From assembly GCF_019216885.1 (NCBI RefSeq), contig NZ_JAAQRC020000002.1, positions 62,001-126,000 on the forward strand: 64,000 nt of DNA, written 5' to 3'. The position numbers and the translations under genes are program-made. This DNA comes from Methylobacterium sp. SyP6R. GTDB lineage: Bacteria; Pseudomonadota; Alphaproteobacteria; Rhizobiales; Beijerinckiaceae. Below, piece after piece: positions 625-14,796 of this stretch (positions within the stretch are counted from its first letter, which is position 1; every line of letters begins with the position of its first letter). A model generated the notes under the pieces. That model ran no database searches, had not been told where the DNA came from, and was given only the letters and a program-made list of their open reading frames with translations.

Positions 625-1062
625 ATGACAAAAGGGCTTATTGGTTGTTGGGACCTGATTGCGTGGCAGCGAAAAGATGCCGCCGGGTCCATTACTTATC
701 CGATCGGCGAGCATGCGGTGGGATCTCTGATCTACACCCATGACGGCAACATGGCGGTGCAGATCGCGGCCGCGAACCGGCCGACGATCGATACGGGCGA
801 TCCGCTCAACGGGGGAACGGTGGAGGAGCGGGCCACCGCGTACTCGACCTGCCTTGCCTATTTCGGCACGTTCGAGGTCAACGGGGACGAAGTCGTCCAT
901 CACATCACCGCGAGTCTGTTCCCGGGATGGACGGGGCAGAGACAAGTCCGTCCGTTCACGCTCGTCGACCATATCCTGACTCTGCATACGCCGGTTCAGC
1001 ATCTGCCGTCCGGCGACGTCACGAACGCCCTGAGCTGGTCGAGGCGCGGCCACGTCAAGTAA
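625..1062 (+). CDS. Lipocalin-like domain protein
   Basis: The 145-residue product opens with GCWDLIAWQ and continues with a YPIGEHAVGSLIYTHDGNMAV strand pattern and a C-terminal LTLHTP strand, as in the small lipocalin-like family (PF13924 type) of unknown ligand. There is no signal peptide. The ATG at 625 follows AAAGGAG at 612-618 at good spacing; the longer open frame upstream lacks coding character. It lies about 95 bp before the GH15 gene on the same strand, so it may belong to the same transcript. Such proteins often accompany polyketide or small-molecule enzymes, but nothing here fixes a role. Confidence 0.7.
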   Translation: MTKGLIGCWDLIAWQRKDAAGSITYPIGEHAVGSLIYTHDGNMAVQIAAANRPTIDTGDPLNGGTVEERATAYSTCLAYFGTFEVNGDEVVHHITASLFPGWTGQRQVRPFTLVDHILTLHTPVQHLPSGDVTNALSWSRRGHVK

Positions 1063-1157: not shown

Positions 1158-2588
1158 ATGCCGATTCGGTCCGTCGATCGATGGGGATGCGGCGTGGGAA
1201 CACTCAACCGGACGCGCGCTCAATCGGGCTTGGGCGACGGCGAGGTCGCCAAACCCGCCATAGCGGGCAACGCCGATCTCGACGTCATCGCTCAGCACAT
1301 GTTCGCGCTGATGATGCGCAACGTCACGTCGGCCGGGTACATCATCGTCGAACCGGTCGGCGGTGCGCTCTCGAAGCCCGGTTGCGTGATCGCCTCGCCG
1401 TCCTATCCCCGGATCACGCCAGGCATCGACCAGGATTACGTGTTCCACTGGGTGCGCGACGCCGCCATCACGGCGATCGAGATCGCCGCCGCGCAGGGTC
1501 CGGCGCCGGCGGTCGGCGGCGCGCAGAGCCTGATCGACTACGTCACCTTCTCGCGCCTGTGCCAGGAAAACGTGCAGGAGGCCGCGAAGCGGGACACGCA
1601 GCTGACGCTCGGTCACGCCTGCTTCACCGTCGACGGGCGCCCGCGGCCCTGGAGCGAGCAGAGCGACGGTCCCGCCCTCCAGACCATCGCCGTGATCGGC
1701 GTCTACGACCGGCTCGACGCGCCGACGCGCGCCGTCGCGAACGAACTCATCCGGATCAATCTCGACTATCTCCTCGGGGTCTACCGGCAGGCCACCATGA
1801 ATCTGTGGGAGGAGCACAAGGGGTTGTCGTTCTTTGCCCGCTCGGTGCAGCTCCGCTGCTTCCGGGAGATCGCGGCCAACACGCTCGGCATTCCGGTCCC
1901 GGCGGGGACCGATGCCGCCATCGCGTGGCTGGCCGATGCCCTCGACCGGCACTGGAACGGGACCGCCTACCTCTCCGTCCTGGACGCCGACCCGCCGCTT
2001 GCCGCCGATGCCGGCTACGACTTCAACATCGACGTCATCGGCGCCTGCCTCTACGGCGCGGTCCCGCCGACCGATCCCAGGCTGCTGGCGACCGCCGCGA
2101 AGCTGCGCGCCCAGTGGGCCGATCCGGCCTCGGCGGTGTTCTACCGGATCAACGGGGACGATGCGCGGCGCGGATTCGGGCCGTTGCTCGGCCGCTATCC
2201 CGGCGACATCTACGACGGCAACACCCGCGACGCGGAGCAGGGCGGCCACCCTTGGGCGCTCTGCAGCTGCAACCTCGCCGAGCTCTACTATCGCGTCGCG
2301 AACGCCGTCGATGCCGGCGGGCGGGTTCCCCTGGACGAACTCTCCCGCGACTTCTTCGGCCAGGTCGGTGTCGGGGCCGGCACGGCGGCGGCCCCGGCCG
2401 CGCAGGCGCTCCGGACGGCCGGCGACGCCATCCTGCGTGCCATCGTGTTCCACAGCAACCATCTCGAGCTGAGCGAGCAGTTCGACAATACCAGCGGCTA
2501 CGAGAAGAGCGTTCGGAACCTGACCTGGAGCTACGCCGCCTTCCTCTCCGCGGTGCGCGCCCGGACCGGGCAAGCGGTGGAGGGCTGA
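1158..2588 (+). CDS. Glycoside hydrolase family 15 (glucoamylase-like) protein
   Basis: The 476-residue protein has the (alpha/alpha)6 GH15 signature: DQDYVFHWVRDAA near residue 98, the general-acid region LWEEHKGLSFF (E218/E219), NIDVIGACLYG, the RYPGDIYDG and GGHPWALC segments, and the general-base motif LSEQFD (E440). Family members release glucose from the non-reducing ends of alpha-glucans or alpha-glucosides. No signal peptide or starch-binding domain is visible, so a cytoplasmic small glucoside is a likelier substrate than starch. It is first in a tight run with sugar-dehydrogenase-like genes (3 bp to the next gene), which suggests that it supplies or recognises the sugar they oxidise. 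A start at GTG 1194 is possible. Confidence 0.88.
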   Translation: MPIRSVDRWGCGVGTLNRTRAQSGLGDGEVAKPAIAGNADLDVIAQHMFALMMRNVTSAGYIIVEPVGGALSKPGCVIASPSYPRITPGIDQDYVFHWVRDAAITAIEIAAAQGPAPAVGGAQSLIDYVTFSRLCQENVQEAAKRDTQLTLGHACFTVDGRPRPWSEQSDGPALQTIAVIGVYDRLDAPTRAVANELIRINLDYLLGVYRQATMNLWEEHKGLSFFARSVQLRCFREIAANTLGIPVPAGTDAAIAWLADALDRHWNGTAYLSVLDADPPLAADAGYDFNIDVIGACLYGAVPPTDPRLLATAAKLRAQWADPASAVFYRINGDDARRGFGPLLGRYPGDIYDGNTRDAEQGGHPWALCSCNLAELYYRVANAVDAGGRVPLDELSRDFFGQVGVGAGTAAAPAAQALRTAGDAILRAIVFHSNHLELSEQFDNTSGYEKSVRNLTWSYAAFLSAVRARTGQAVEG

Positions 2589-2591
2589 GCC

Positions 2592-2996
2592 ATGGCGGAC
2601 CGGACCGCGCGCTTCCTCGACCTGTCCGCCCGGCTGACCGGCTGGTCCGTGTTCGACCTCCGGGCGACCGGCATGGCCGAGGCGTATGTCGCCGCCGCCG
2701 ATGCGCGCCTGCCGCCGGGGCTGCTCGACGGCCTGCTCGCCGCGGGGGGCGACGACGACGCGATCATGGACGATGCGCGGCTGGGTCCGCTCGCGCGCAC
2801 CCTGATCCTGCTCTGGTACACGGGGTCGTGGACGGTCGTGCCCGGGGTGCCGGCAACCTCGAAGCCGCCCGCCGGCGTGATCTCGCCCGCCGCCTACCAG
2901 GCCGGCCTGATGTGGCGCGCCGCCGGTGCGCATCCGGCGGGTGCCGAGCCGCAGGGCTACGCAGCCTGGGCGCTGGAGCCGGAGCCGTCGCCATGA
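2592..2996 (+). CDS. Small subunit of a FAD-dependent sugar dehydrogenase (FAD-SLDH family)
   Basis: The 134-residue protein matches the small-subunit family of membrane FAD sorbitol/fructose dehydrogenases: FLDLSARLTGWSVFDLRATGMAEAYV at the start, LARTLILLWYTGSW in the middle, and SPAAYQAGLMWRAAGAHPAGAEPQGYAAW at the end. Classical members have a twin-arginine signal that carries the catalytic subunit out of the cell; this one has none, so the complex probably stays in the cytoplasm. Its stop overlaps the next gene's start (ATGA), which fits a subunit paired with the GMC protein at 2993. A paralogue lies at 7830. Confidence 0.8.
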   Translation: MADRTARFLDLSARLTGWSVFDLRATGMAEAYVAAADARLPPGLLDGLLAAGGDDDAIMDDARLGPLARTLILLWYTGSWTVVPGVPATSKPPAGVISPAAYQAGLMWRAAGAHPAGAEPQGYAAWALEPEPSP

Positions 2997-4822
2997 ACCC
3001 CCCAGACCACTTCGACGTCGTCATCGTGGGCGCGGGCGTGGCCGGCGCGCTCATCGCCGATGCGCTGACCGGCGCCCGTCTGCGCGTGCTGGTCCTGGAA
3101 GCCGGACCGGACACGGTCCGCCGCTTCGACGGCTACACGGATCATCTCCGGCAATTCTATGCCGCCCAGGCCAAGGGCCCGGAATCGCCCTGGACGCCCG
3201 CGAAGGCCGCGCCGCAGGCCGACACGGCCTACCTCAAGCAAATCGACCTTGCTCACCCCGAGACGCCGCAACCAGGCTACTTCATCCAGCGCGGCCCGCA
3301 CCTCTACGGTAGCTCCTATACGCGCCGCTGGGGCGGATCGACCCTGCACTGGCTCGGCGTCTCTCTGCGCATGCTCCCCGAAGACTTCGCGATGCAGTCC
3401 GAGCACGGCGTCGCCCGCGACTGGCCGCTCGGCTACGGCGACGTCGCCCCCTATTACGCCGCGGCCGAACGGGCGATCGGCGTGTCCGGCGACGTCGCGG
3501 AGCAGCGCTATCTCGGGGTCACGTTCGAGGACGGCTACGATTACCCGATGCGCCGGATCCCGCCGAGCTGGTCCGACCGGGAACTGGCCACCGGAATCGA
3601 CGGGCTCGAAGTGACGGTCGGTACGGAGCGGATCAGCCTCAAGGTCCGCGGCTATCCGGCCGCCCGCAACGGCGTGCCGCGGGCCGGCTATCGTCCCCAG
3701 GGCGCGATCGACATCCGCGACCGCGGCGTGCAGGTCGAGCAGAGCCTCGGCGAGCGCTGCGCCGGCAACACCGCCTGCACGCCGATCTGCCCGATCCAGG
3801 CGCGCTACCATGCCGGCAAGACCCTCGCCGGTGCGATCGAGGGCGGCCTTCAGGTGCGCGCGCAGGCGGTCGCCAGCACGATCGTGACCGATCCGGCGGA
3901 CGGGACGGTGCAGCGGATCGAGTACAAGCGCTACGACGACCCGGCCTCGACCGCCTTCACGCCCGCATCGGTGACGGCGCGCGTCTACGTCCTGGCGGCG
4001 CACACGATCGAGAACGCCAAGCTGCTGCTGGCCTCCGGCATCGCCGGGGGCGGGGTCGGCCGGGGCTTGATGGACCATCCGGCGCTCTATGCCTGGGGGT
4101 TGGCGCCCCGGCCGGTCGGCGCCTTCCGGGGGCCGCTCTCGACCTCCGGCATCGAGGATTGCCGCGGCGGCCGCTTCCGCAGCGAGCACGCGGCGTTCCG
4201 CTACGACATCGGCAACGACGGCTGGCGCGCCACCACCGGCGCGCCCGACTCCACCGTGGCCGACGCGGTGCTGAAGCGGGGCCTGTACGGGGCGAAGCTG
4301 CGGGCCGCCCTGACCGACATCCTCCCGCGCCAGGTGCGCCTGTCGCTCGCGGTCGAGCAACTGCCCGACCGCGAGAACCGGATCAGCATCGATCCCGCCC
4401 ATCTCGACCCCATCGGCAACCCGCTGCCGATCATCGACTACCGGATCGACGCCTACACCAAGGCCGGGATGGCGGCCGCCGCGCGGGTGAGCCGCGCGAT
4501 CTTTCGGCGTGCCGGGATCGAGGACCGTACCGGCATCGACGAGAACTGGTTCCCCCCGGTCAGCTTCGAGGGCGAAACCTTCCGCTACCACGGGATGGGC
4601 CACTTCGCCGGCACGCACGCGATGGGGGACGACCCGGCGACTTCCGTCGTCGACCCGTACCAGCGCGTCTGGGGCCATCCCAACCTCTTCGCGGTCGGCG
4701 GCGGCAGCATGGTGACGATGGGCACGTCCAACCCGACGCTCACGATCGCCGCGCTGGCGCTGCGGACCGCCGATCACATCCTCGCCACCTTCAAGCAAGG
4801 GCCCGGCCATGCTGCTGCCTGA
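2993..4822 (+). CDS. GMC-family FAD oxidoreductase, sugar 3-dehydrogenase-like, with Fe-S cysteine triad
   Basis: The 609-residue flavoprotein has an N-terminal Rossmann motif (VVIVGAGVAGA, residues 9-19), a GMC substrate domain and the C-terminal THAMG...NPTLTIAALALR segment with the catalytic His and the FAD-contacting strand. Residues C256, C262 and C266 (RCAGNTACTPIC) have the 6/4 spacing of the [3Fe-4S] ligands of bacterial FAD-glucose and fructose dehydrogenase catalytic subunits. Oxidation of a sugar hydroxyl, perhaps at C3, is inferred. No export signal. It overlaps the preceding small subunit by 4 bp and the second GMC gene by 14 bp. The electron acceptor is not encoded nearby. Confidence 0.85.
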   Translation: MNPPDHFDVVIVGAGVAGALIADALTGARLRVLVLEAGPDTVRRFDGYTDHLRQFYAAQAKGPESPWTPAKAAPQADTAYLKQIDLAHPETPQPGYFIQRGPHLYGSSYTRRWGGSTLHWLGVSLRMLPEDFAMQSEHGVARDWPLGYGDVAPYYAAAERAIGVSGDVAEQRYLGVTFEDGYDYPMRRIPPSWSDRELATGIDGLEVTVGTERISLKVRGYPAARNGVPRAGYRPQGAIDIRDRGVQVEQSLGERCAGNTACTPICPIQARYHAGKTLAGAIEGGLQVRAQAVASTIVTDPADGTVQRIEYKRYDDPASTAFTPASVTARVYVLAAHTIENAKLLLASGIAGGGVGRGLMDHPALYAWGLAPRPVGAFRGPLSTSGIEDCRGGRFRSEHAAFRYDIGNDGWRATTGAPDSTVADAVLKRGLYGAKLRAALTDILPRQVRLSLAVEQLPDRENRISIDPAHLDPIGNPLPIIDYRIDAYTKAGMAAAARVSRAIFRRAGIEDRTGIDENWFPPVSFEGETFRYHGMGHFAGTHAMGDDPATSVVDPYQRVWGHPNLFAVGGGSMVTMGTSNPTLTIAALALRTADHILATFKQGPGHAAA

Positions 4823-6668
4823 CGACGCGTCGAACACCGATCCGACGGCCATCGACGGCGTGACCTTCGACGCCGTGATCGTCGGATCGGGGATCTCCGG
4901 GGCGATCATCGCCAGGCAACTCGCCGAGGCGGGCAAGTCCGTCCTGATCCTGGAGGCCGGCGTCGGCGAGCGCTACGAGGATTACCTCGAACGGTTCTAC
5001 GGCACCGCGTCGAAGGACAACCAATCCCCCTTCGGCCCCAACCCCAACGCGCCGATGCCGCGCAGCGGCGACGTGCACAAGATCACCCCCGGCCGCCCGG
5101 ATACCAGCGCCTACCTGGTCCAGACCGGGCCCTACGGCTCGGACACGACCTATACCCGGGTGCTCGGCGGGACGACGATGCACTGGGAGGGGAAGGTCAT
5201 CCGGATGCTTCCGGAGGACTTCCAGATGCAGACTCTCTACGGAAGAGGTGTCGACTGGCCGATCACCAACGAGGATCTCGAACCCTATTACTGCAAGGCC
5301 GAGCGCGAGATGGGCGTGTCGGCGAACCGCAAGGATACGGAATATCTCGGCACGTATTTCAAAGACCCGGAATACGTCTTCCCGATGCACGGCCTGCCGC
5401 TCTCCTACCTCGACGAGCAGGTCGACAAGGGTATCCGCGGCACGAATGTCGAGCTCTACGGCGAGAGCTTCGCACTCAAGGTCCGACCCTTCCCGCAGGC
5501 GCGCAACGGGATTCCCAATCCGGACTACGACAACAAAAAGGGCTTCGAGCCGGTCCTGGCGGTGAGCGACCACCAGTCCGACATGGGCGGGCGCTGCCAG
5601 GGCAACAACGCCTGCGTCCCGCTCTGCCCGGTCCAGGCGAAGTACAATGCCGGCAAGACCCTCGCGGCCGCGGTGAAGAACGGCCGGGTCCGCATCGTGC
5701 GGCAGGCGGTGGCGTCGCGCGTCCTGGTCGATTCCGATTCCGGCCGGGTCACGGGAATCGAGTTCCAGCATTACAGCGATCCCAAGGTACCGTCGGGCAA
5801 GCGCCACGTCGCCCGGGGCACCCTCTACGTGCTGGCCGCCAACGCGATCGAGAATCCGCGGCTCATGCTGGCCTCGGGCCTTCCCGGCCGCAGCGGGCTG
5901 ATGGGCCGCAACCTGATGGATCACGCCTACCTGCTGAGCTGGGCGGTGATGCCCGAGATCTGCGGCGTGATGCGCGGCACCAACTGCACGGGCGGCATCG
6001 TCGAGCTGCGCGGCGGCAACTTCCGCCGGCACCAGGCCGCCTTCAGCGTCGACATCCACAACGACGGCTGGGGATGGGCCGTCGGCTCGCCCTATTCCGA
6101 CCTGATCGAGCTCGTCGACAACCAGAACAAGTTCGGCGGCGAGCTGCGCCAGGGGCTGATCGACCGCGTGTCGCGCCAGCTGCAGCTCGCCTTCATGATC
6201 GAGGTGATGCCGAACGAGAGCAACCGGGTCAGCGTCGACCCGACCTTCACGGATGCGCTCGGCAACATGCGGCCGATCATCTCCTACAACATTCCGGACT
6301 ACACGATGCGCGGCGCGGCCTATGCGCGCCAGTTCGCCCGGATGGTGTTCCAGCGACTCGGAGCCGCCGACTACACGGCCTACGACCCTGCCGATTACGG
6401 CTACGTTCCCTACGAGGGGGAGGGCTACGTCATCCGCGGCGGCAATCACATCGCCGGCACGCACGTGATGGGCAACGACAAGCATAGCTCCGTCGTCGAC
6501 ACGTATCAGCGCTCCTGGGAGCACGACAACCTGTATCTCGTCGGCGCCGGCAGCATGCCGACCATCGCGACGGCCAACACGACCCTCACCCTCGCCGCGC
6601 TCTGCTTCCGCAGCGCCGGGGCCATGCTGTCCCATCTGGCGACCGGCCAGTACAGGACCGCGGCCTGA
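4809..6668 (+). CDS. Second GMC-family FAD oxidoreductase with Fe-S cysteine triad
   Basis: The 619-residue protein is a diverged paralogue of the preceding one: Rossmann motif AVIVGSGISGA near residue 22, RVLGGTTMHWEGKVIRMLPEDFQM at 118-140, cysteines C263, C269 and C273 (RCQGNNACVPLC) predicted to bind a [3Fe-4S] cluster, and GTHVMG plus TANTTLTLAALCFRSA at the C-terminus. No signal peptide. Two adjacent GMC genes with two small-subunit genes in one operon suggest either two dehydrogenases acting in sequence or a heteromeric complex. Substrate unknown. Confidence 0.85.
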   Translation: MLLPDDASNTDPTAIDGVTFDAVIVGSGISGAIIARQLAEAGKSVLILEAGVGERYEDYLERFYGTASKDNQSPFGPNPNAPMPRSGDVHKITPGRPDTSAYLVQTGPYGSDTTYTRVLGGTTMHWEGKVIRMLPEDFQMQTLYGRGVDWPITNEDLEPYYCKAEREMGVSANRKDTEYLGTYFKDPEYVFPMHGLPLSYLDEQVDKGIRGTNVELYGESFALKVRPFPQARNGIPNPDYDNKKGFEPVLAVSDHQSDMGGRCQGNNACVPLCPVQAKYNAGKTLAAAVKNGRVRIVRQAVASRVLVDSDSGRVTGIEFQHYSDPKVPSGKRHVARGTLYVLAANAIENPRLMLASGLPGRSGLMGRNLMDHAYLLSWAVMPEICGVMRGTNCTGGIVELRGGNFRRHQAAFSVDIHNDGWGWAVGSPYSDLIELVDNQNKFGGELRQGLIDRVSRQLQLAFMIEVMPNESNRVSVDPTFTDALGNMRPIISYNIPDYTMRGAAYARQFARMVFQRLGAADYTAYDPADYGYVPYEGEGYVIRGGNHIAGTHVMGNDKHSSVVDTYQRSWEHDNLYLVGAGSMPTIATANTTLTLAALCFRSAGAMLSHLATGQYRTAA

Positions 6669-6684
6669 CGAAGGAACGCCGATC

Positions 6685-7833
6685 ATGAAATCCAAGCAAG
6701 CCAAGCCGATCACCGACATCGACACGCTTCGATCGTATCTGCACACCGCGATGAAGCTGGAACATGCGACGATCCCGCCCTACCTGACCGCTCTGTACTC
6801 GATCAAGCCCGGCACGAACCCGGATGCCGCCCAGGTGCTGCGTGTGGTGGCGGTCGAGGAAATGCTCCATCTCGTCCTGGCCGCGAACCTCCTCAACGCC
6901 ATCGGCGGCACGCCGCGGGTGACCGCCGACGACTTCGTCCCGTGCTATCCCGCCTTCCTTCCGGACGGCGAGACGGATTTCCGGGTCGGCCTGCAGCCGT
7001 TCTCGCGCGACGCGATCGACACCTTCCTCAAGATCGAGCGACCGCGCCTCGCCCCGGAGCCCGACATGCAGCTCCTGTATCGACCGGAGGTGACGGCCGA
7101 AAGCCGTCATTACATCACGTGCCATCCGACCCAGACGGATTTCGTCTTCTACAGCATCGGCGAATTCTACGACGCGGTCAAAAAAGGATTCTCGAACGTC
7201 TACGCGCAGATGGGTGAGAAAATGTTCTGCGGCGATCCCAGAAGGCAAGTCACGTCCGAGTATTATTATTCGGGCGGCGGCTCGCTGACCCCGGTGACGG
7301 ATCTTAAGAGCGCGGAAACGGCGATCGACCTCATCATCGAGCAGGGCGAGGGCGAGCTGAAGAGCATCTATGGCGACCAGGGCGAGCTGGCGCATTACTA
7401 CCGCTACATGCAGCTGAAATGCGGTCGCTACTTCCAGAAATCCGACGATACCGGCAGGCCTCCGTTCACGCCGACCGGGCCCGCGCTGGATGTGGACTGG
7501 GACGCGGTCTACCCGCTCAAGGCCAATGCCAAGATGACCGATTACGAGCCCGGCTCGGAAGCGGAGGCGGCGGCAAAAGCCTTCAACGACGCCTATCGCG
7601 GCTTCCTGCACTTGCTGCAGCGCGCCTTCACCGGGGAGCCGCAGTTGCTGGAGGGCGGCGTGTCGATGATGTTCGAATTGCGCAACGCGATGAACCGGCT
7701 CATCCGCAATCCGCTCAGCGAGTCTTCGCCGTTCAACGCCGCCCCGACCTTCGAAGTCTGCCCGCACGGACGATCGCAGGGCCAATCCCCCTGCGAACCC
7801 GATGCCGAGCCCCATGTCGAGGAACCGGCATGA
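6685..7833 (+). CDS. Ferritin-like diiron domain protein (VioB/iminophenylpyruvate dimer synthase-type domain)
   Basis: The 382-residue protein begins with a four-helix ferritin-like domain: LRSYLHTAMKLEHATIPPYL (E26), VVAVEEMLHLVLAANLLNAIGG (E58/E59, H62), and further E and H positions around IIEQGEGELKSIYG and GELAHYYRYMQ. This pattern is shared with the N-terminal domain family of VioB and RebD, so a diiron or haem-iron oxygen chemistry is plausible. The violacein-type C-terminal region is absent. AAGGAACG at 6670-6677 is a good ribosome binding site, and the stop overlaps the next start by 4 bp. A ferritin-like oxidase inside a sugar-dehydrogenase operon is unusual. Confidence 0.78.
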   Translation: MKSKQAKPITDIDTLRSYLHTAMKLEHATIPPYLTALYSIKPGTNPDAAQVLRVVAVEEMLHLVLAANLLNAIGGTPRVTADDFVPCYPAFLPDGETDFRVGLQPFSRDAIDTFLKIERPRLAPEPDMQLLYRPEVTAESRHYITCHPTQTDFVFYSIGEFYDAVKKGFSNVYAQMGEKMFCGDPRRQVTSEYYYSGGGSLTPVTDLKSAETAIDLIIEQGEGELKSIYGDQGELAHYYRYMQLKCGRYFQKSDDTGRPPFTPTGPALDVDWDAVYPLKANAKMTDYEPGSEAEAAAKAFNDAYRGFLHLLQRAFTGEPQLLEGGVSMMFELRNAMNRLIRNPLSESSPFNAAPTFEVCPHGRSQGQSPCEPDAEPHVEEPA

Positions 7834-8441
7834 CCGCCTATCTGAACGATTTCCTCGACTTCTCGGTCGAGATGACCTGCTTCACGCGGTTCGAGCTGCT
7901 CGGCACGGGCCAGGCGGAGAACTATGCCGAGGCCGCGCGGGCCGCCTCGGGCGCAGCCTTCGACGAACTCCTGGCGCGCTACGGCACCCTCAAGACCGGT
8001 CCCGATCGCATCGTCGACCTGCGCCACAAGATCCTCGGCGACGAGTATCTCGGCCCGGTCGCCCGCGCGATCATCAAGATGTGGTATATCGGCATCTGGT
8101 ACGAGCTGCCGCGAAGCTGGACGGAGAAGTTCGGCGCCCGCGCCAGCAACACCTCCCGCATGGTCACGCCCGCAGCCTATGCCGAGGGCCTGCTGTGGAC
8201 CGCCATCGGCGCCCATCCGCCGGGAGCCAAGGCGCCGGGCTATGGATCCTGGGCCAGGCCCCCGTCCATTCCGGCCTTCACCTGTTCCCTCGCGGCCTCG
8301 ACGGGTGGCCGCGGAGGCGGGCCCGGCGGTGGGCACGACCCCGGCCCGATGGTGACGCAGGTCCGCGAGGGCCACGTCGCCCCGCATCACGCCCCGAAAT
8401 CGGAACATCCGCCGCCCCATTCCGGAGACTTCCCGAAATGA
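7830..8441 (+). CDS. Second FAD-SLDH-type small subunit with Gly/Pro/His-rich tail
   Basis: Residues 1-150 of this 203-residue protein follow the small-subunit pattern: FLDFSVEMTCFTRFELLGTGQAENY, a VARAIIKMWYIGIWYELP helix, and MVTPAAYAEGLLWTAIGAHPPGAKAPGYGSW. From about residue 155 it continues in a low-complexity tail rich in Gly, Pro and His (GGRGGGPGGG, VAPHHAPKSEHPPPHSG) that its paralogue at 2592 lacks. No twin-arginine signal. The ATG overlaps the ferritin-like gene's stop and the TGA overlaps the next ATG, so it is translationally coupled on both sides. Confidence 0.75.
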   Translation: MTAYLNDFLDFSVEMTCFTRFELLGTGQAENYAEAARAASGAAFDELLARYGTLKTGPDRIVDLRHKILGDEYLGPVARAIIKMWYIGIWYELPRSWTEKFGARASNTSRMVTPAAYAEGLLWTAIGAHPPGAKAPGYGSWARPPSIPAFTCSLAASTGGRGGGPGGGHDPGPMVTQVREGHVAPHHAPKSEHPPPHSGDFPK

Positions 8442-9358
8442 CTGCCCAGCCACCCAAGCTCAAGCGGGACAAGGTCAGGATCGGCGTCACGCCGACACTG
8501 TGGTGGAACGACGATTTCTGGTCGATCGACATCGGCATCACCTTCGGGCAATGCGTCAGCGAGATGGCGCTCGCCGGCTACGAGGGGTGCAGCGTCGGGC
8601 ACAAATACCCGAAGGACCCGTGCGTCCTGAAGGCCGAGCTCGACCTGCGCGGCCTCACGGTCTCCGAACCCTGGGTGAGCACCTATTTCACGATTCCCGA
8701 GGGCCATGCGCAGACGATCGCCACCGTGCGCCAGCAGCTCGATTTCCTCGACGCCGTCGGCGGGCACGATCTGGTGGTGGCGGAGTTCGGCGGTGCCGCC
8801 AACCCCCAGCCGATCGCGGTGTTCGCCAACCGGCCGATCTTCGACGACAGGCAGTGGAAGCACCTGTGCGACGGGCTCAACGAGATCGGCCGCATGGCGA
8901 ACGATCGCGGCAAGCGCCTTTGCTACCACCCGCATATGGGAACGGGGGTCAACGTCGCGGCGGATATCGACCGCCTGATGCATGGCACCGCGCCGGACCT
9001 GGTGCACCTGCTGCTCGATACCGGGCACCTCTATTTCGCCGGCGTCGATCCTCTCCACGTCGCGAACAAGCACGGCAAGCGCATCAAGCACATCCATCTC
9101 AAGAACAACCGCGCCGAGATCGTCGAGCGGGCCCGCACGCAGAACTGGTCGTTCCAGACGGCGGTCGAGAACGGCGTGTTCACCGTGCCGGGCGATCCGG
9201 ACGGGTGCATCGACTTCCCGCCGATCTTCGAAGCGCTTGCCAGACACGATTTCGCCGGCTGGATCGTGGTCGAGGCGGAGCAGGATCCGGCCAAGGCCAA
9301 TCCGCTCCGCTACGCCAGGATGGCCCGCGAATACCTCCGTGCGACGTTGGGGTTCTGA
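8438..9358 (+). CDS. IolE-like sugar isomerase/dehydratase (TIM barrel)
   Basis: The 306-residue protein looks like inosose dehydratase IolE: VRIGVTPTLWWNDD at the start, EMALAGYEGCSVGHKYP, CYHPHMGTGV, LLLDTGHLYFAG, KHIHLKN and the C-terminal WIVVEAEQDPAKANPLRYARMAREYL typical of IolE. Family members bind a divalent metal through Glu, Asp, His and Glu and eliminate water from a keto-cyclitol or isomerise keto-sugars. In this operon a dehydratase or isomerase acting on a 3-keto-sugar made by the GMC enzymes is the natural guess. No other inositol genes are adjacent, so classical inositol breakdown is unlikely. Confidence 0.82.
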   Translation: MTAQPPKLKRDKVRIGVTPTLWWNDDFWSIDIGITFGQCVSEMALAGYEGCSVGHKYPKDPCVLKAELDLRGLTVSEPWVSTYFTIPEGHAQTIATVRQQLDFLDAVGGHDLVVAEFGGAANPQPIAVFANRPIFDDRQWKHLCDGLNEIGRMANDRGKRLCYHPHMGTGVNVAADIDRLMHGTAPDLVHLLLDTGHLYFAGVDPLHVANKHGKRIKHIHLKNNRAEIVERARTQNWSFQTAVENGVFTVPGDPDGCIDFPPIFEALARHDFAGWIVVEAEQDPAKANPLRYARMAREYLRATLGF

Positions 9359-9360
9359 TC

Positions 9361-10359
9361 ATGCCGCATCCCGAGGTCTATCTCAGCTTCTTCATGTTCA
9401 CGGCCGACCTGCGGCCCGACGACGTCGTCTATTCCGAGACGATCATCCGTCACATGCGGGCGCTCCTGGACATGGGCTATGACGGGTTCGATCTGCCGAT
9501 CGCGCCGACGCCGACCCTCGACCACGCGGCGGAGGTCGACAGCTACCGGCGCCTGCGCCGCCGGCTCGCCGCTGCCGGCCTGGACGACCTGCGGATCGCC
9601 ACCAATGTCGGCACGACCCGGACCTTCGATCCGACCTCGCCGTGGAAGGAGCAGCGCGACGCCGCCCTGGCCTATCTCAAGTCGCGGGTCGACATCACCG
9701 TCGCGCTCGGCGGGACGATGCTCGCCGGCCCGATCGTGTTCCCCTACGGCGTCTTCCCCACCACCGACTTCAACGAGCCGCTGTGGAGCGACGCGCTGCA
9801 GACGTGGCTCGCGCCGCGCTACGAACTCGCCGCTCCGGTCCTTCGGGAACTCGCCGACTATGCCGGCGAGCACGGCGTCACGCTGGCGATCGAACCGGTC
9901 GATCACTGGGAAACGCCGGCGCCGAACATGGTGGCGGACGTGATGGACTTCCTCCGGCACGTCTCGAACCCCCGCCTGGGCGTGTGCGTGGACAGCGCGC
10001 ACGTCCTGCTCGGCAGCGACGGACCGGGCGCATTCCGCAATGGCATCGCCGATGCGGTGGCCGAACGCCGGCTTCATTACGTCCACGTGTCGGCCCCCGA
10101 CCGCGGCGTGATCGCCGACAGCTGGATTCCCTGGCGCACGTTCCTGGAGCCGATCGTCCCGCATTATACCGGGCCCTACCTGCTCGAAGTGTTCAACGCC
10201 GTGCCGCCCTTCCTCGGGTCGCTGCGGCAGACACGGCGCAAGTTCTGGATTCCCTGCGAGGATGCTCCCGGCCCCGGCCCGAGCGCCTACGCCGTCGCGG
10301 AGGCGGCCCTCGCCGCCTTCCGCGAGCAAATGTCGGCGCTGGCGGCGGCGACGGGGTGA
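9361..10359 (+). CDS. Sugar phosphate isomerase/epimerase family protein (TIM barrel)
   Basis: The 332-residue protein has AP-endonuclease-2-like TIM-barrel landmarks: DMGYDGFDLPI, GVTLAIEPVDHWETPAPN (metal-binding Glu), LGVCVDSAHVLLG (Asp/His) and LHYVHVSAPDRG, ending in GPYLLEVFNAVPPF (Glu). This is the D-tagatose/D-psicose 3-epimerase superfamily. It starts 2 bp after the previous stop and ends the operon; the repeat at 10408 follows. Epimerisation or isomerisation of the oxidised sugar is inferred from context. Confidence 0.8.
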   Translation: MPHPEVYLSFFMFTADLRPDDVVYSETIIRHMRALLDMGYDGFDLPIAPTPTLDHAAEVDSYRRLRRRLAAAGLDDLRIATNVGTTRTFDPTSPWKEQRDAALAYLKSRVDITVALGGTMLAGPIVFPYGVFPTTDFNEPLWSDALQTWLAPRYELAAPVLRELADYAGEHGVTLAIEPVDHWETPAPNMVADVMDFLRHVSNPRLGVCVDSAHVLLGSDGPGAFRNGIADAVAERRLHYVHVSAPDRGVIADSWIPWRTFLEPIVPHYTGPYLLEVFNAVPPFLGSLRQTRRKFWIPCEDAPGPGPSAYAVAEAALAAFREQMSALAAATG

Positions 10360-10407: not shown

Positions 10408-10515
10408 CCTAAGCAGATTTCGAAAAAGTGGCTGCCGGTTTTGCGGAAGAAATCTGCGATGAGATAAGGATCTAAGCGGACGAAGCGTTGGCCTGCCAAC
10501 GCAAGTTTGCTTAGG
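10408..10515. repeat. REP-like intergenic element with nested inverted repeats
   Basis: The outer arms CCTAAGCA (10408-10415) and TGCTTAGG (10508-10515) pair exactly, and inside them GCAGATTTC (10413-10421) pairs with GAAATCTGC (10449-10457). The internal text, with AAAGTGGC...CCGGTTTT, resembles dispersed intergenic repeats of alphaproteobacteria. It lies between two converging operons and reaches the permease stop codon, so it may act as a bidirectional terminator. Confidence 0.6.
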
Positions 10516-11281
10516 TCCGGTGAAACAGGCGCCGGTCGAGCCATAGCAGCGCGCCGTTGGCCGCCACCGCCACGATCACCAGCATCAGGATCACGGCGGT
10601 CGTCTGCTGCACGTTGTGCAGGCTGATCCCGTTCACGATCAGGAACCCGAGCCCCTTCTGCGACGCGAACATCTCGCCGACGAGGACGCCGAGCAGCGTG
10701 AGCGAGAAGCCGACCCGCAGGCCCGTGACGATCTCCGGCAGCACCGCGGGGGCGAGCACCGTGCGGATCGTCTCGGCCTGGCTCAGCCGCATCGCCCGGG
10801 CGGTGCGAACCAGCACCGGGTTGATGCCCTTGACCGCCGTGAGGGTGAACAGGGTGATCGGGATCACGCCGTGGATCACCCCGAACGCCACCTTCGCCCC
10901 GAGGCCGAGGCCGAAGATCAGCAGGATCACCGGGTAGAGCGTGACCTTGGGGATCGAGTACAGGCCGGCGAGGATCGGCTCGGCGACCTCCCCGGCGAAG
11001 CGGCGCAGGCCCAGGACCAGCCCGAGCCCGATGCCGAGGGCGGCCGAGATCACGAGGGCGGCCGCGAAGGCGGTGAGCGTCGCGCGCGCATGCGACCAGA
11101 ACCCCGCGGTGGCGGCGAGGCCCGACAGGTGCCGGAGGGCGGCGAGCGGCGAGGCGATCGCCGCGTCGCCGGCATAAGCGTGGAGCGCCTGCCAGAGGCC
11201 GACGAGAACCACGATGGTGATCGCACCGTCGAGGAGGCCTGAGCGGGACGGAGCGGCGGGAAGCGAGGAGGGGGCGCTCAC
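10511..11281 (-). CDS. ABC transporter permease (nitrate/sulfonate/taurine type)
   Basis: The 256-residue membrane protein has about six hydrophobic segments and the SsuC/TauC-type cytoplasmic loop in APAVLPEIVTGLRVGFSLTLLGVLVGEMFASQKGLGFLI. It overlaps the upstream permease by 4 bp and is last in an operon of lyase, binding protein, ATPase and two permeases. Substrate unknown; the PEP-mutase-family enzyme leading the operon suggests an organic acid or phosphonate-like compound rather than a sulfonate. Confidence 0.85.
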   Translation of the reverse strand: MSAPSSLPAAPSRSGLLDGAITIVVLVGLWQALHAYAGDAAIASPLAALRHLSGLAATAGFWSHARATLTAFAAALVISAALGIGLGLVLGLRRFAGEVAEPILAGLYSIPKVTLYPVILLIFGLGLGAKVAFGVIHGVIPITLFTLTAVKGINPVLVRTARAMRLSQAETIRTVLAPAVLPEIVTGLRVGFSLTLLGVLVGEMFASQKGLGFLIVNGISLHNVQQTTAVILMLVIVAVAANGALLWLDRRLFHRT

Positions 11282-12039
11282 GAGCGGATGCGGCGGCGCA
11301 TCAGGCGGCCCTCCCAGGCGTGCAGGGTCATGTTGAGGCCGGTCACCACCACGAGCACGAACAGCATCAGGGAGTACATCGTGCGGTTCTCGAAGCCGTC
11401 ATAGGCATAGGCGATGGCGTGGCCGAGCCCGGCATCGGCTAGGATGAACTCGCCCGCGATGATGCCGATGAAGGCGTAGGCGAGCGCGAGCTTCACGCCG
11501 GTGAGCAGGTAGGGCAGGGCGCTCGGCATCACCACGTGGGCAAGCGTCGAGAGGCGCCCGAGCCGGTGGGCCCGGGCGGTGCGCATCAGCACCCGCGGCA
11601 CCCGGTCGAGACCGTTGAGGGTCGCGAGGATCATCGCCGGCACCCCGAACGCCATGCCGAGCACGATCAGCGGCACGCTGTTGAGGCCGAAGATGGCGAC
11701 GAAGAGCGGGTAGAAGACGAAGGTCGGGATCGCGTAATAGGAGGCGAGCAGCGGGTCGAGACCCTGCCGGATCCGGGGCAGGGCGTGGATCGCGACACCC
11801 AGGGAAAAGCCGATCGCGACCGCGAGCACCACGGCGACCGCCACCGTCGCGAAGGTGCGGGCGATGTCGCCGGTGATCTCGCCCGAGGCGAGCATGGTCC
11901 ACAACGTGGCGATCATCTCGCTCGGCGGGATCAGGGTCAGCGGATCGACGAGGTGCAGTCGGCAGACCGCTTCGAGCAGCAGGACGAAGCCGGCGATCCA
12001 GCCGATCCGGGTCAGGACGATCGCGCGCTCCCGCGTCAT
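11278..12039 (-). CDS. ABC transporter permease (nitrate/sulfonate/taurine type)
   Basis: The 253-residue protein starts at MTRERAIVLTRIGWIAGFVLLL; the ATG at 12039 overlaps the stop of the ATPase gene (ATGA), which favours it over longer upstream frames. It has the permease loop motif (VVMPSALPYLLTGVKLALAYAFIGIIAGEF) and pairs with the next permease to form a heterodimeric channel. Confidence 0.85.
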   Translation of the reverse strand: MTRERAIVLTRIGWIAGFVLLLEAVCRLHLVDPLTLIPPSEMIATLWTMLASGEITGDIARTFATVAVAVVLAVAIGFSLGVAIHALPRIRQGLDPLLASYYAIPTFVFYPLFVAIFGLNSVPLIVLGMAFGVPAMILATLNGLDRVPRVLMRTARAHRLGRLSTLAHVVMPSALPYLLTGVKLALAYAFIGIIAGEFILADAGLGHAIAYAYDGFENRTMYSLMLFVLVVVTGLNMTLHAWEGRLMRRRIRS

Positions 12040-12869
12040 GATGCGCTCGTCTTGCCGATCGCCTTCAGCGATTCCTCGCGCAGGTGCGACCACAGCCGGG
12101 CGGTGACCTGGCCGAAGCGCTCCTCCGCCACGATGCGGCTGTCGCGCTCGCGCGGCCAGCCGGTCTCGACGATCTCGATGAAGCGGCCGGGCCGCGACGA
12201 CATCACGCCGATGCGGTCGGACAGCATCGCCGCCTCGTCGAGGGCGTGGGTGATGAGGAGCACCGTGGCGCCGGTCTCGCGCCACAGCCGCAGGAGCTCG
12301 TCGCCCATCAGCAGGCGCGTCTGCTGGTCGAGCGCCCCGAACGGCTCGTCGAGCAGGATCAGGCGCGGCTGCGTCACCAGCGTGCGGGCGATGCAGACCC
12401 GCTGGCGCATGCCGCCGGAGAGCTGCGCCGGATAGGCTTGCGCGAAGTCGGACAGCCCCATGAAGCCGAGCGCGTAATCGACCCGGCGGGCGATCTCGGC
12501 CGCGTCGGTGCCGGCCCGGCGCAGGCCGAAGGCGACGTTGTCGCGAACCGTGAGCCAGGGGAACGAGGCGTCCTCCTGGAACACGATGCCGATTCCGTCG
12601 GGCACGCCCGCGACCGGGGCGCCCTCGAACGTCATCGTGCCGGCATTCGGCCGCCCGAGGCCGGACAGGACGTCGAGCAGGGTGGACTTGCCGCAGCCGG
12701 ACGGGCCGACGACCGAGAAGAACTCGCCCTTGACGAGGTCGAGGTCGAGGGGCCCGAGCGCGGCGAGCCGGCCGTAGACCCGGGTGACCCCGCGAAGCTC
12801 GGCGTGGATCTCGCGAGCCTGGGCGGGCATCCCGCTGCGTGGATCGGCGCTGAGGGCAACGACGGCCAT
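12036..12869 (-). CDS. ABC transporter ATP-binding protein (SsuB/TauB type)
   Basis: The 277-residue ATPase has Walker A GPSGCGKST (residues 55-63), a Q-loop in GIVFQEDASFPWLTVRDNVAFGL, the signature LSGGMRQR, Walker B LILLDEPFGALD and the H-loop LLITHALDEA. These are typical of importers for nitrate, sulfonate, taurine or related anions. Gene order binding protein, ATPase, permease, permease, all coupled or closely spaced. Confidence 0.88.
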   Translation of the reverse strand: MAVVALSADPRSGMPAQAREIHAELRGVTRVYGRLAALGPLDLDLVKGEFFSVVGPSGCGKSTLLDVLSGLGRPNAGTMTFEGAPVAGVPDGIGIVFQEDASFPWLTVRDNVAFGLRRAGTDAAEIARRVDYALGFMGLSDFAQAYPAQLSGGMRQRVCIARTLVTQPRLILLDEPFGALDQQTRLLMGDELLRLWRETGATVLLITHALDEAAMLSDRIGVMSSRPGRFIEIVETGWPRERDSRIVAEERFGQVTARLWSHLREESLKAIGKTSAS

Positions 12870-12878
12870 CTCAATTCC

Positions 12879-13862
12879 TTACTGCGAGGCCTGGAGGTCT
12901 TTCGGCAGGAAGGACGGATCGACCACCTGACCCCACTCCACCGGCTTCTTGAGGCGGCCGACGAGCTTCATGCCGTCGAGCATGCGGGTCATGTTGTCGT
13001 AGTGCAGGCGGCCGTCGCCGAAATACTCGAAGCCGACGAGTTGCTTGAACACCGCGCGAAACACTTTCGCGTCGCCGCCATAGGCCTTGGCGAGGATGTC
13101 GGCCGCCTCGTCGGGATGGGCCTTGATGTAGGCGACGCCCTCGCGCCGCGCCTCGATCAGCGCGCGCAGCGTGTCGCCGCCGGTCTTCGCGAACTCGGTC
13201 GTGGTGATGCCGACGGTCTGGGTCAGTGCCGGGTTCATGCAGTCCTTGGCCCAGAACGCCGCCTTGACCTTGCCCTGGTTGCCCGACCACAGCGGCTCGC
13301 CCGACATCGCCGCATCGACCGCCCGATTGAGCACCGCCGAGAGGTTGGCGCCGAGATCGCCCGCCGCCACGAGCTGCAGGTCCTTCTGCTCCAGCCCGGC
13401 CTTCTGCAGGCAGTTGAGGATGATCATGTTGGTGACGGAGCCGGGCGCCGTATAGGCGATCTTCTTGCCCTTCATGTCGGCGAGCGAGCCGATCGTGCCG
13501 TCGGGCTGCGTGATCCAGAGGATGTCCTCGACGCTCTCGACGCCGCCGCTGATGATCTTGATCGGCTGGCCGGACTGGATCGCCAGGATGGCGGCCGGCA
13601 GCGCGACCTCGCCGTACGGCACCTCGCCGGCCAGCGTGTTGCGCACCGAGGTGCCACCGCCGGCCGAGGTGAGGAAGCCGGTGATGTCGAGCCCGCGCTT
13701 CTTGAAGAAGCCCTTCTCGAGGGCGACCGCGTAGGGCGCGCCGTAGAAGGCCGAGCCCCAATGCGTGACCGTGATGGTCTCGGCGCGGGCGCCCGCCCCG
13801 GCGAGGCCGGCGCCTGCGAGCAGCAGACCCAAAGCTCCGGCACGCAAGGTTCTCAGGATCAT
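12879..13862 (-). CDS. ABC transporter substrate-binding protein (NMT1/SsuA-like)
   Basis: The 327-residue precursor starts at MILRTLRAGALGLLLAGAGLAG, a signal peptide ending near AGARA, and continues as a periplasmic NMT1/THI5-like binding protein (VALEKGFFKKRGLDI, GKKIAYTAPGSVTNMI). The ATG at 13862 is preceded by AGGGAGA on the minus strand, which makes it preferable to a start nine codons upstream. It delivers the substrate to the two-permease importer downstream. Confidence 0.85.
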   Translation of the reverse strand: MILRTLRAGALGLLLAGAGLAGAGARAETITVTHWGSAFYGAPYAVALEKGFFKKRGLDITGFLTSAGGGTSVRNTLAGEVPYGEVALPAAILAIQSGQPIKIISGGVESVEDILWITQPDGTIGSLADMKGKKIAYTAPGSVTNMIILNCLQKAGLEQKDLQLVAAGDLGANLSAVLNRAVDAAMSGEPLWSGNQGKVKAAFWAKDCMNPALTQTVGITTTEFAKTGGDTLRALIEARREGVAYIKAHPDEAADILAKAYGGDAKVFRAVFKQLVGFEYFGDGRLHYDNMTRMLDGMKLVGRLKKPVEWGQVVDPSFLPKDLQASQ

Positions 13863-13911
13863 TCTCGTCTCTCCCTGTCCGGCCGGCATCGTCGGTGTCG
13901 AGGCGCGCCGC

Positions 13912-14796
13912 CTACTCGGCGGCCGCGGCGCGGGCGGGCTCGTCGCGGAAGCGGGTCCGCAGGCCGTCCCACCGGTCGGCGCCGAGGCGGCGGAAGCGCT
14001 CGCGGATCGCCGGTGCCCCGGCCGAGCCCGGCGGTGCGTTCGTCTCCCTCAGCGTGGCGAGCGCCGCGTCGAAGGCCTCCATGGCGGCACCGAACAGGAG
14101 GCTCGGCAGGATCGCGAGCCGGTAGCCCATCGCTTGCGCCGCCGGCATGTCGATGTCGGGCGTCTTGCCGCCGCGCACCACGTTGAGCAGGCACGGCCCG
14201 GTCACGAGGCGCGGCACCGCCTGCATCTCGTCGAGGGTCTGCGTCGCCTCGACGAAGGCCATGTCGGCGCCGGCGGCGAGGGCGAGGTTGGCGCGCGCCA
14301 CCGCCTCGTCGAAGCCGGCGACCGCCCGGGAATCGGTCCGCGCGATGATGACGAAATCCGTGTCCCGCCGCGCCGCCACCGCGGCGCGGATCTTGGCGAC
14401 GAACTCTTCGCGCGGCACGATCTCCTTGCCGTCGAGATGGCCGCAGCGCTTCGGGCTGACCTGATCCTCGATGTGCAGGCCGGCGACGCCGCGCATCTCG
14501 TATTCGTGCACCGTGCGGGTGACGTTGAGCTCGTTGCCGTAGCCGGTATCGGCATCGGCGATGACCGGGATCTCGACGGAACGCGCGAGGGTGCCGGCAT
14601 TGGCCGCCATCTCGCTCATCGTCACGAGGCCGAAATCCGGATAGCCGAGGGAGGCCGCGGTGCCGGCGCCGGTCATGTAGACCGCCGGAAAGCCCGCCTG
14701 CTCGATGAATTTGGCGGTGATGCCGTCATAGGCGCCGGGCGCGACGATCATCTCCGGGCGCGCGAGGAGCGCGCGCATCTGGCGGGCCTGACCCAT
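13912..14796 (-). CDS. Isocitrate lyase/PEP mutase family enzyme
   Basis: The 294-residue protein has the family active-site text: VAPGAYDGITAKFIEQAGFPAVYMTGAG, IPVIADADTGYGN, GLHIEDQVSPKRCGHLDGKEIVP and IIARTDSRAV. Members include 2-methylisocitrate lyase, dimethylmalate lyase, carboxyvinyl-carboxyphosphonate phosphorylmutase and oxaloacetate decarboxylase; PKRCGH fits the lyase side. It heads the ABC-transporter operon, 87 bp downstream of a candidate GntR operator. A paralogue lies at 20236 in the opposite arm of the same regulon, so both may cleave related C4-C6 2-hydroxy-acids. Confidence 0.82.
   Translation of the reverse strand: MGQARQMRALLARPEMIVAPGAYDGITAKFIEQAGFPAVYMTGAGTAASLGYPDFGLVTMSEMAANAGTLARSVEIPVIADADTGYGNELNVTRTVHEYEMRGVAGLHIEDQVSPKRCGHLDGKEIVPREEFVAKIRAAVAARRDTDFVIIARTDSRAVAGFDEAVARANLALAAGADMAFVEATQTLDEMQAVPRLVTGPCLLNVVRGGKTPDIDMPAAQAMGYRLAILPSLLFGAAMEAFDAALATLRETNAPPGSAGAPAIRERFRRLGADRWDGLRTRFRDEPARAAAAE

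Follow-up and report, generated by a model that had tools for sequence, protein, structure and literature searches.

A conserved operon of GMC dehydrogenases, a ferritin-like protein and an IolE-like protein in Methylobacterium sp. SyP6R, and a possible cytoplasmic route from alpha-glucans to a dehydrated keto-sugar

Our analysis concerns an operon in Methylobacterium sp. SyP6R that combines a glucoamylase-type hydrolase (GH15), two GMC dehydrogenases (GMC1 and GMC2), two small subunits, a ferritin-like protein (FER), an IolE-like dehydratase and a xylose-isomerase-like TIM barrel (ISO). It lies in a window of 64,000 nucleotides on contig NZ_JAAQRC020000002.1 (G000:C2:62001-126000; the contig has 742,825 bp and the host genome 7.5 Mb). 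We read the operon, tentatively and with somewhat less than even confidence, as a cytoplasmic pathway that would convert an alpha-glucan or alpha-glucoside into a dehydrated keto-sugar, a dihydropyranone resembling cortalcerone, similar to the way in which certain wood-rot fungi produce a small antibiotic. What points to this chemistry are related clusters in other bacteria, some of which encode a relative of the fungal enzyme aldos-2-ulose dehydratase (AUDH).

Scanning genome contigs with a FER profile returned 423 relatives, the best 80 of which we kept as a locus set. Gene counts in these loci are tblastn best matches at an identity of at least 40% (at least 30% for small subunits), and the set includes many near-duplicate Rhizobium or Streptomyces loci as well as some cut contigs. 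FER is present in all 80 loci, GMC2 in 79, a small subunit in 77, the IolE-like gene in 74, ISO in 57 and GH15 in 50. Less common are genes for an MBL hydrolase (42), a TPP enzyme (41), a GH63-like enzyme (18), a debranching enzyme (12), GMC1 (12), a lipocalin (12) and AUDH (11). The core genes span six phyla, and the cluster recurs in many soil, plant and marine bacteria. Even though the loci were chosen by FER alone, GMC2, FER, a small subunit and the IolE-like gene occur together in 73 of them; 79 have GMC2 on the strand of FER and no more than 400 bp ahead of it (L070, the one locus that does not, begins at a contig end, inside the cluster), and a small subunit directly follows FER in 73. 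All eight genes named above are found in nine loci (L011, L012, L014, L015, L018, L022, L038, L053 and L058), and a Pararhizobium plasmid (L099) carries the operon's full set of nine genes, a lipocalin included, in identical order, followed by a gene for a heme-binding protein. Because the neighbourhood is conserved across loci, we reject a chance array or wrong gene calls. The first-pass annotation, made from the letters of the window, had tied its case for an operon to co-occurrence of the GMC and ferritin-like genes and to conservation in related genomes; we find GMC2 in 79 and GMC1 in 12 of the 80 FER loci, and a neighbourhood conserved across phyla. It had also called the operon undescribed-looking, which agrees with the literature as far as our search went: titles and abstract starts among the matches listed yielded no published description of the gene set, most subscription papers lying outside the search.

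The loci fall into three layouts. Type A, to which the window belongs, runs lipocalin, GH15 (in nine of 12 loci), small subunit, GMC1, GMC2, FER, small subunit, IolE, ISO. The lipocalin and GMC1 are found in exactly the same 12 loci, all 12 of which also contain relatives of a heme-binding FMP-type protein when no identity threshold is applied (11 with a threshold of 40%; two representatives are named by NCBIfam). We rejected such a protein as a component in the host, where a genome search run without a positive control found none. Type B consists of GH15, GMC2, FER, small subunit, IolE, ISO, MBL and TPP. The MBL and TPP genes occur together in 41 of the 80 loci, and GMC1 is never found beside either (0 of 12). 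In type C, the order of which varies, GMC2, FER, a small subunit, AUDH and IolE are joined by a GH63-like enzyme in 11 of 11 AUDH loci and by a debranching enzyme in eight. The GH63-like, debranching, AUDH, MBL, TPP and heme-binding families were domain-scanned through representatives, and the remaining members were assigned by similarity.

Type C provides the clue to the chemistry. A protein of 421 residues in L059 matches PF22301, the propeller domain of aldos-2-ulose dehydratase (E 1.4e-49). Its alignment with the fungal AUDH, an enzyme of 900 residues, covers residues 20-431 of the latter (PDB 4a7k, E 2.6e-61). Relatives of the L059 protein are found in 11 of 80 loci, seven from Bacteroidota and one each from Planctomycetota, Alphaproteobacteria, Gammaproteobacteria and Actinomycetota; in L039 the gene is on the opposite strand. 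ISO and AUDH exclude each other (57 loci with ISO, 11 with AUDH, none with both and 12 with neither; Fisher p 1.3e-7, a value that is overstated because the loci are phylogenetically non-independent), and IolE accompanies all 68 ISO or AUDH loci. Because of this exclusion, because IolE goes with both, and because the alignment is confined to the part before residue 431, we infer that the propeller half of AUDH accounts for isomerisation, a function that would fall to ISO in type A and type B clusters, and that IolE corresponds to the dehydratase half. IolE acting on inosose and AUDH acting on glucosone both carry out an alpha,beta-dehydration to a 1,2-dione. Given the association with AUDH, the GMC product would be a 2-keto sugar and the hydrolases would serve to supply glucose.

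The steps could be as follows. GH15, whose motifs are observed and whose substrate is predicted, would release glucose. GMC2 with small subunit 2 may oxidise it at C2 to glucosone, C2 being suggested by the AUDH of the sister clusters, and GMC1 with small subunit 1 would perform a second oxidation in the variant found in the window. FER, as a dimetal protein, would take the place of cytochrome c subunits, either handing electrons to O2 or clearing peroxide. The IolE-like protein would then remove C3-H and C4-OH to give a 4-deoxy-2,3-diulose, which ISO may isomerise to the pyranone; elsewhere the AUDH propeller would fill the slot of ISO. The end product is more probably exported as a small metabolite than used as food. 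For the regiochemistry, the product and the role of FER we argue from sequence and by analogy.

In fungi, glucosone is converted to cortalcerone, a proposed antibacterial (available part of PMC7910265), and AUDH is listed among the few characterised cupin dehydratases (available part of PMC4795551). The bacterial operon would share with this route an oxidation by the GMC superfamily followed by dehydration and isomerisation, and sister clusters share the AUDH propeller itself. Unlike the fungal route, it has a [3Fe-4S]-type dehydrogenase with a small subunit and FER in place of a pyranose oxidase, the IolE-like protein would replace the cupin half, and AUDH was not found in the host genome. 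Hence, our best reading, by analogy, is that the operon operates in the manner of the fungal glucosone-cortalcerone route without belonging to it.

The dehydration step invites a different interpretation. The IolE-like protein passes the IolE equivalog model TIGR04379 (349.8 bits against a cut-off of 290), and its nearest solved relatives by far are IolEs (PDB 9zmu, E 1.8e-64; next E 1.7e-62). Residues E116, D194, H220 and E281, which by analogy are taken as metal ligands, are conserved at 97% or more in 79 homologues. One could argue that the GMC enzymes oxidise inositol, or a glucosyl-cyclitol from which GH15 strips the glucose, to inosose, that IolE dehydrates it, that ISO acts like IolI or IolO and that elsewhere the TPP enzyme ends the route. 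The joint presence of MBL and TPP genes in about half of the loci would suit this idea, and ISO does match the IolO model weakly (34.7 of 300 bits), but behind psicose epimerase (39.8); among solved proteins it matches PDB 2qw5 (E 2e-114), named only as a xylose-isomerase-like TIM barrel. We keep a cyclitol pathway as a serious rival but consider it unlikely, for the following reasons. First, the operon IolEs lie apart from the 15 other rows that pass the IolE model (13 genomic, two PDB) in our tree, a split with almost no support (37/0). This tree contains 22 non-operon rows, seven of them distant and below the IolE cut-off, and leaves out three loci: L128, whose stretch contains a stop, L134, which is short, and L105, which is the window. 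Second, a Rhizobium genome (G093), whose operon IolE is identical to that of Rhizobium ecuadorense L013, has another IolE over the cut-off besides its operon copy. Third, the single TPP enzyme that we examined has its nearest relatives among decarboxylases (PDC, E 5.8e-70), and the 25 best of 52 families do not include IolD. Fourth, AUDH and the debranching and GH63-like enzymes would be out of place in a cyclitol pathway. In myo-inositol catabolism itself the IolE model is shared, but here the neighbours are GMC, FER and alpha-glucan hydrolases; domain scans of the operon matched no iol neighbours, iolG and iolD not having been searched for. The operon copy is the one IolE that we found above the cut-off in the host genome.

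A second alternative is a 3-keto-sugar pathway, in which oxidation at C3 is followed by elimination and hydration by TIM barrels. GMC enzymes carry out C3 oxidation in known systems, and the pathways for C-glycosides and 3-keto-glycosides share GMC enzymes and AP_endonuc_2 TIM barrels with the operon. Among solved proteins, the IolE-like protein is indeed closest, after IolE, to a 2-hydroxy-3-keto-glucal hydratase, 8ro4. However, this nearest solved member of such pathways matches at just E 3.6e-8, about 56 orders of magnitude more weakly than IolE. AUDH acts on 2-keto sugars, as its name and chemistry indicate, and a GH15 that releases glucose upstream makes elimination of the glycosidic bond needless. 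We regard this alternative as improbable. The first-pass annotation had proposed a cytoplasmic sugar pathway framed around 3-keto sugars. Its succession of hydrolysis, GMC oxidation, IolE-type dehydration and TIM-barrel isomerisation is supported; for the frame itself the glucosone (2-keto) route is nearer, because 11 of 80 loci have AUDH instead of the isomerase.

To judge from their sequences, both GMC proteins belong to the family of FAD/[3Fe-4S] glucose and fructose dehydrogenases. The nearest solved relatives of GMC2 are a glucose dehydrogenase (PDB 6a2u, E 5.1e-75) and a fructose dehydrogenase (7w2j, E 2.6e-58). Among 88 GMC2-type homologues, C263, C269 and C273 are present in all, and H547 and N590 in 87, with one gap. 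GMC1, 43% identical to GMC2, retains the cysteine triad and the His/Asn pair. We take the three cysteines to be the ligands of the [3Fe-4S] cluster, as in the Burkholderia enzyme, and the His/Asn pair to be catalytic. Both proteins score far below the pyranose-oxidase model (GMC1 61.7 and GMC2 61.3 against 544.9 bits). Glucose dehydrogenase oxidises C1 and fructose dehydrogenase C5.

The two small proteins are 38% identical to each other over 139 aa and match no Pfam family of their own. The signals that they give are weak: four of 22 members of their family match PF12318 (FAD-SLDH) at E up to 1 (best 0.01), a profile comparison with the fructose dehydrogenase small subunit gives E 0.47, and in a fold search small subunit 2 finds the solved fructose dehydrogenase small subunit 8jej_B as its best match (E 0.12). 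Because these three signals agree, we suggest with moderate confidence, from sequence and models, that they are cytoplasmic versions of the fructose dehydrogenase-type small subunit. The known enzymes and the operon are thus alike in the family of the catalytic subunit, the Cys motif and the His/Asn pair and, on weak evidence, in a small-subunit-like gene beside the GMC gene. They differ in that the small subunits in the window have no Tat peptide by a simple scan, that the nine operon genes include no match to a cytochrome c family while two small proteins match no family, and that FER adjoins GMC.

No signal or Tat peptide was seen in any of the window proteins by a scan for hydropathy and RR motifs, a simpler tool than a trained predictor. 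Their only hydrophobic N-terminal stretches are the FAD-binding motifs of the two GMC proteins, and an RR match occurs in one of 10 homologues of small subunit 1 and in one of 66 of ISO. Hence, the pathway is probably cytoplasmic.

FER is a free-standing PF12902 protein of 382 aa, and 4,486 PF12902 homologues were counted with FER as query. E26, E59, E118, E222 and H237 are invariant in 84 homologues, 81 of which also have H62 (the other three have Asp). Alignment A1 comprises the window FER and 17 of the 120 listed FER proteins; A2 and A3 hold 22 and 21 chosen rows. The structure model is helical (pLDDT 87), with CC_0557 of C. vibrioides (3hl1) as best fold match, and this set of Glu and His residues on a helix bundle would fit a dimetal site. 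Searching the PDB by sequence did not assign a molecular function to FER. The label "VioB-type", which the protein had been given at first, is right at the level of the PF12902 domain, which FER shares with VioB-type proteins and, together with the fold, with CC_0557. It does not extend to VioB itself: FER stands alone and scores 16.6 of the 1250 bits of the VioB equivalog TIGR04492, on which ground we reject VioB-type indole chemistry.

What FER does follow is GMC. In a survey of 398 genomes of the host phylum (top three or four candidates per genome, cut-offs E 1e-60 and 1e-20), four genomes have a GMC at 55% identity or more, with FER adjacent in all four, and the same holds for G497 at 45%. 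In L011, each GMC gene has a FER gene directly behind it. The host has a second triad of small subunit, GMC and FER (G000:C2:729248-731867; L094:9191-12234), 26-39% identical, with no IolE match within the surrounding 20 kb. FER is tied to GMC more than to other operon genes, and the tie is not exclusive. Because FER tracks GMC and because the cytochrome subunit of the known relatives is missing, we suggest that FER may handle electrons or peroxide. Elsewhere in the host, a further region (L091, G000:C2:582895-594171) has two more stretches that match PF12902; they share 33-40% identity with FER, and one is interrupted by an internal TGA. The 20 kb covered there include no GMC match.

GH15 aligns with the WEE and SEQ motifs of glucoamylase (PDB 1agm). 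The GH15 domain and both catalytic Glu are present in the window protein, and E218, E219 and E440 are conserved at 97% or more in 54 homologues; the roles of the catalytic residues are presumably those of the Aspergillus enzyme. The first-pass annotation considered GH15 an odd component, a view that the loci contradict. Fifty have GH15 and 19 a debranching or GH63-like enzyme, one locus having both and 12 none that we recognised; wherever a hydrolase was recognised (68 of 80) it is of alpha-glucan type. GH15 is simply one of several alpha-glucan-type hydrolases that fill a common slot. In L074, an open reading frame of 543 residues without a Pfam match (6510-8141) lies between the GH63-like gene and GMC2 and clusters with open reading frames from three other loci.

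These hydrolases also bear on a third alternative, ordinary catabolism, in which an oxidative, non-phosphorylating route would lead from glycogen or maltodextrin to central metabolism with no secreted metabolite. Debranching, GH63-like and GH15 enzymes are of glycogen type, and in 41 of 80 loci MBL and the TPP decarboxylase-like enzyme could finish the breakdown. Several observations make such a route unlikely. The distribution is patchy and often on plasmids: FER matches occur in two of 119 genomes, namely the host and G093, which belongs to the same order, in nine of the 398 of the host phylum, host included, and, counting remote ones, in 169 plasmid records. Quorum-sensing genes stand alongside the cluster in 11 of 80 loci, and no transporter or kinase family is among the matches of the window operon.

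Several points weigh against a glucosone-type pathway, besides the IolE-model score and the overstated Fisher value given above. GMC2 matches pyranose oxidases at best with E 1.7e-13, more weakly than glucose and fructose dehydrogenases. AUDH was not found in the window, nor in the host genome by a search that had no positive control of its own (the same tool did find ISO and IolE in other searches), and because of this the C2 chemistry has to be carried over from the sister clusters. ISO and AUDH are both missing from 12 of the 80 loci, although four of those contain a remote TIM barrel (23-28%). The IolE tree places four operon rows of Nocardioides type away from the main operon group. GMC and FER occur without IolE in six of 80 loci (L066, L068, L069, L071, L086 and L090) and in genomes G274 (78% complete) and G497, so the triad must have other uses. 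In three of the six loci, all Rhizobium leguminosarum (L068, L069 and L071), the cluster looks decayed, with GMC2 matching in separate pieces and neither a small subunit nor IolE downstream of FER; others are cut short. Another of the six, a Magnetococcales contig (L090:639-6199), reads GMC, FER, small subunit, GMC, with no IolE in the 6.4 kb covered. In the phylum survey, G293 has GMC and FER on different contigs, three of the nine FER genomes have no such GMC, and 11 of 17 GMC genomes have no FER, their GMCs being more remote (at most 42%). Finally, the lipocalin, MBL and TPP genes are not explained by the proposed pathway.

In the window, the eight genes span 1158-10359, all on the plus strand, with successive spacings of 3, -4, -14, 16, -4, -4 and 2 bp (Table 1). 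This close packing had been noticed from the letters, as had the absence of a cytochrome or transporter: Pfam-type domain scans of the window operon matched no cytochrome, transporter or kinase family. The eight genes listed at first are all present, but a ninth had been missed, the lipocalin gene, which ends 95 bp before GH15. Facing the operon at 10511-14796 on the minus strand are ABC transporter genes (10511-12869) with an NMT1/THI5-like binding protein and a PEP-mutase/isocitrate-lyase-like gene; their opposite strand and different families led us to reject them as operon members. Genes for hydantoinase A and B lie on the opposite strand just before the window (G000:C2:58049-61773; L096:8049-11773).

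Table 1. Genes of the operon, with positions in the window and the matches on which their names are based
Gene product	Position	Strand	Evidence
Lipocalin-like small protein, PF13924 Lipocalin_5	625..1062	+	Pfam E 3.1e-30, scanned as longer open reading frame 487-1062
GH15 glucoamylase-type alpha-glucosidase	1158..2588	+	PF00723 E 1.7e-33; PDB 1agm E 7.2e-26
Small subunit 1 of GMC dehydrogenase (FAD-SLDH/FDH-small-subunit-like, weak evidence)	2592..2996	+	38% to small subunit 2
GMC1, FAD/[3Fe-4S]-type dehydrogenase, second copy	2993..4822	+	PF05199 GMC_oxred_C E 8.7e-21
GMC2, FAD/[3Fe-4S]-type sugar dehydrogenase, conserved core enzyme	4809..6668	+	GMC_oxred_C E 5.9e-17
FER, ferritin-like, probable dimetal partner of GMC	6685..7833	+	PF12902 E 4.8e-66
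Small subunit 2, partner of GMC2	7830..8441	+	just 3' of FER in 73/80 loci
IolE-like dehydratase	8438..9358	+	TIGR04379 349.8 bits; AP_endonuc_2 E 1.1e-28
ISO, xylose-isomerase-like TIM barrel, probable keto-sugar isomerase	9361..10359	+	AP_endonuc_2 E 2.4e-28

The quorum-sensing genes are raiI and raiR, which lie 4-6 kb upstream of FER, with other genes in between, in 11 of 80 loci, all of them Rhizobium loci of type B (L013, L017, L027, L028, L033-L035, L037, L046, L052 and L085). This is adjacency, not regulation. The genes regulated by raiIR had not been identified as of 2014, according to an excerpt of PMC4149787. In R. leguminosarum no other phenotype has been tied to Rai and in R. etli raiI affects nodulation (excerpt of PMC5977203); nodule number and growth are mentioned in an excerpt of PMC4125696. 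The available part of a 2026 study (PMC13133039) places raiI and raiR on 51 plasmids in a context with dadR and alanine genes, and that part mentions neither GMC nor glycoside hydrolases.

One could go further and see in the cluster a horizontally spread bacterial route to pyranone signals or antibiotics that is linked to quorum sensing in rhizobia, with FER as the terminal oxidase of GMC and with IolE and an isomerase reinventing the fungal AUDH. We consider this bolder version rather unlikely. If our reading is true, a sugar pathway of the kind that yields antibiotics in fungi would have an independent bacterial counterpart, with core genes in six phyla. It would provide a function for the large PF12902 group and an example of a GMC sugar dehydrogenase that works without a cytochrome subunit, and it would offer candidate targets for the RaiIR quorum sensor of rhizobia.

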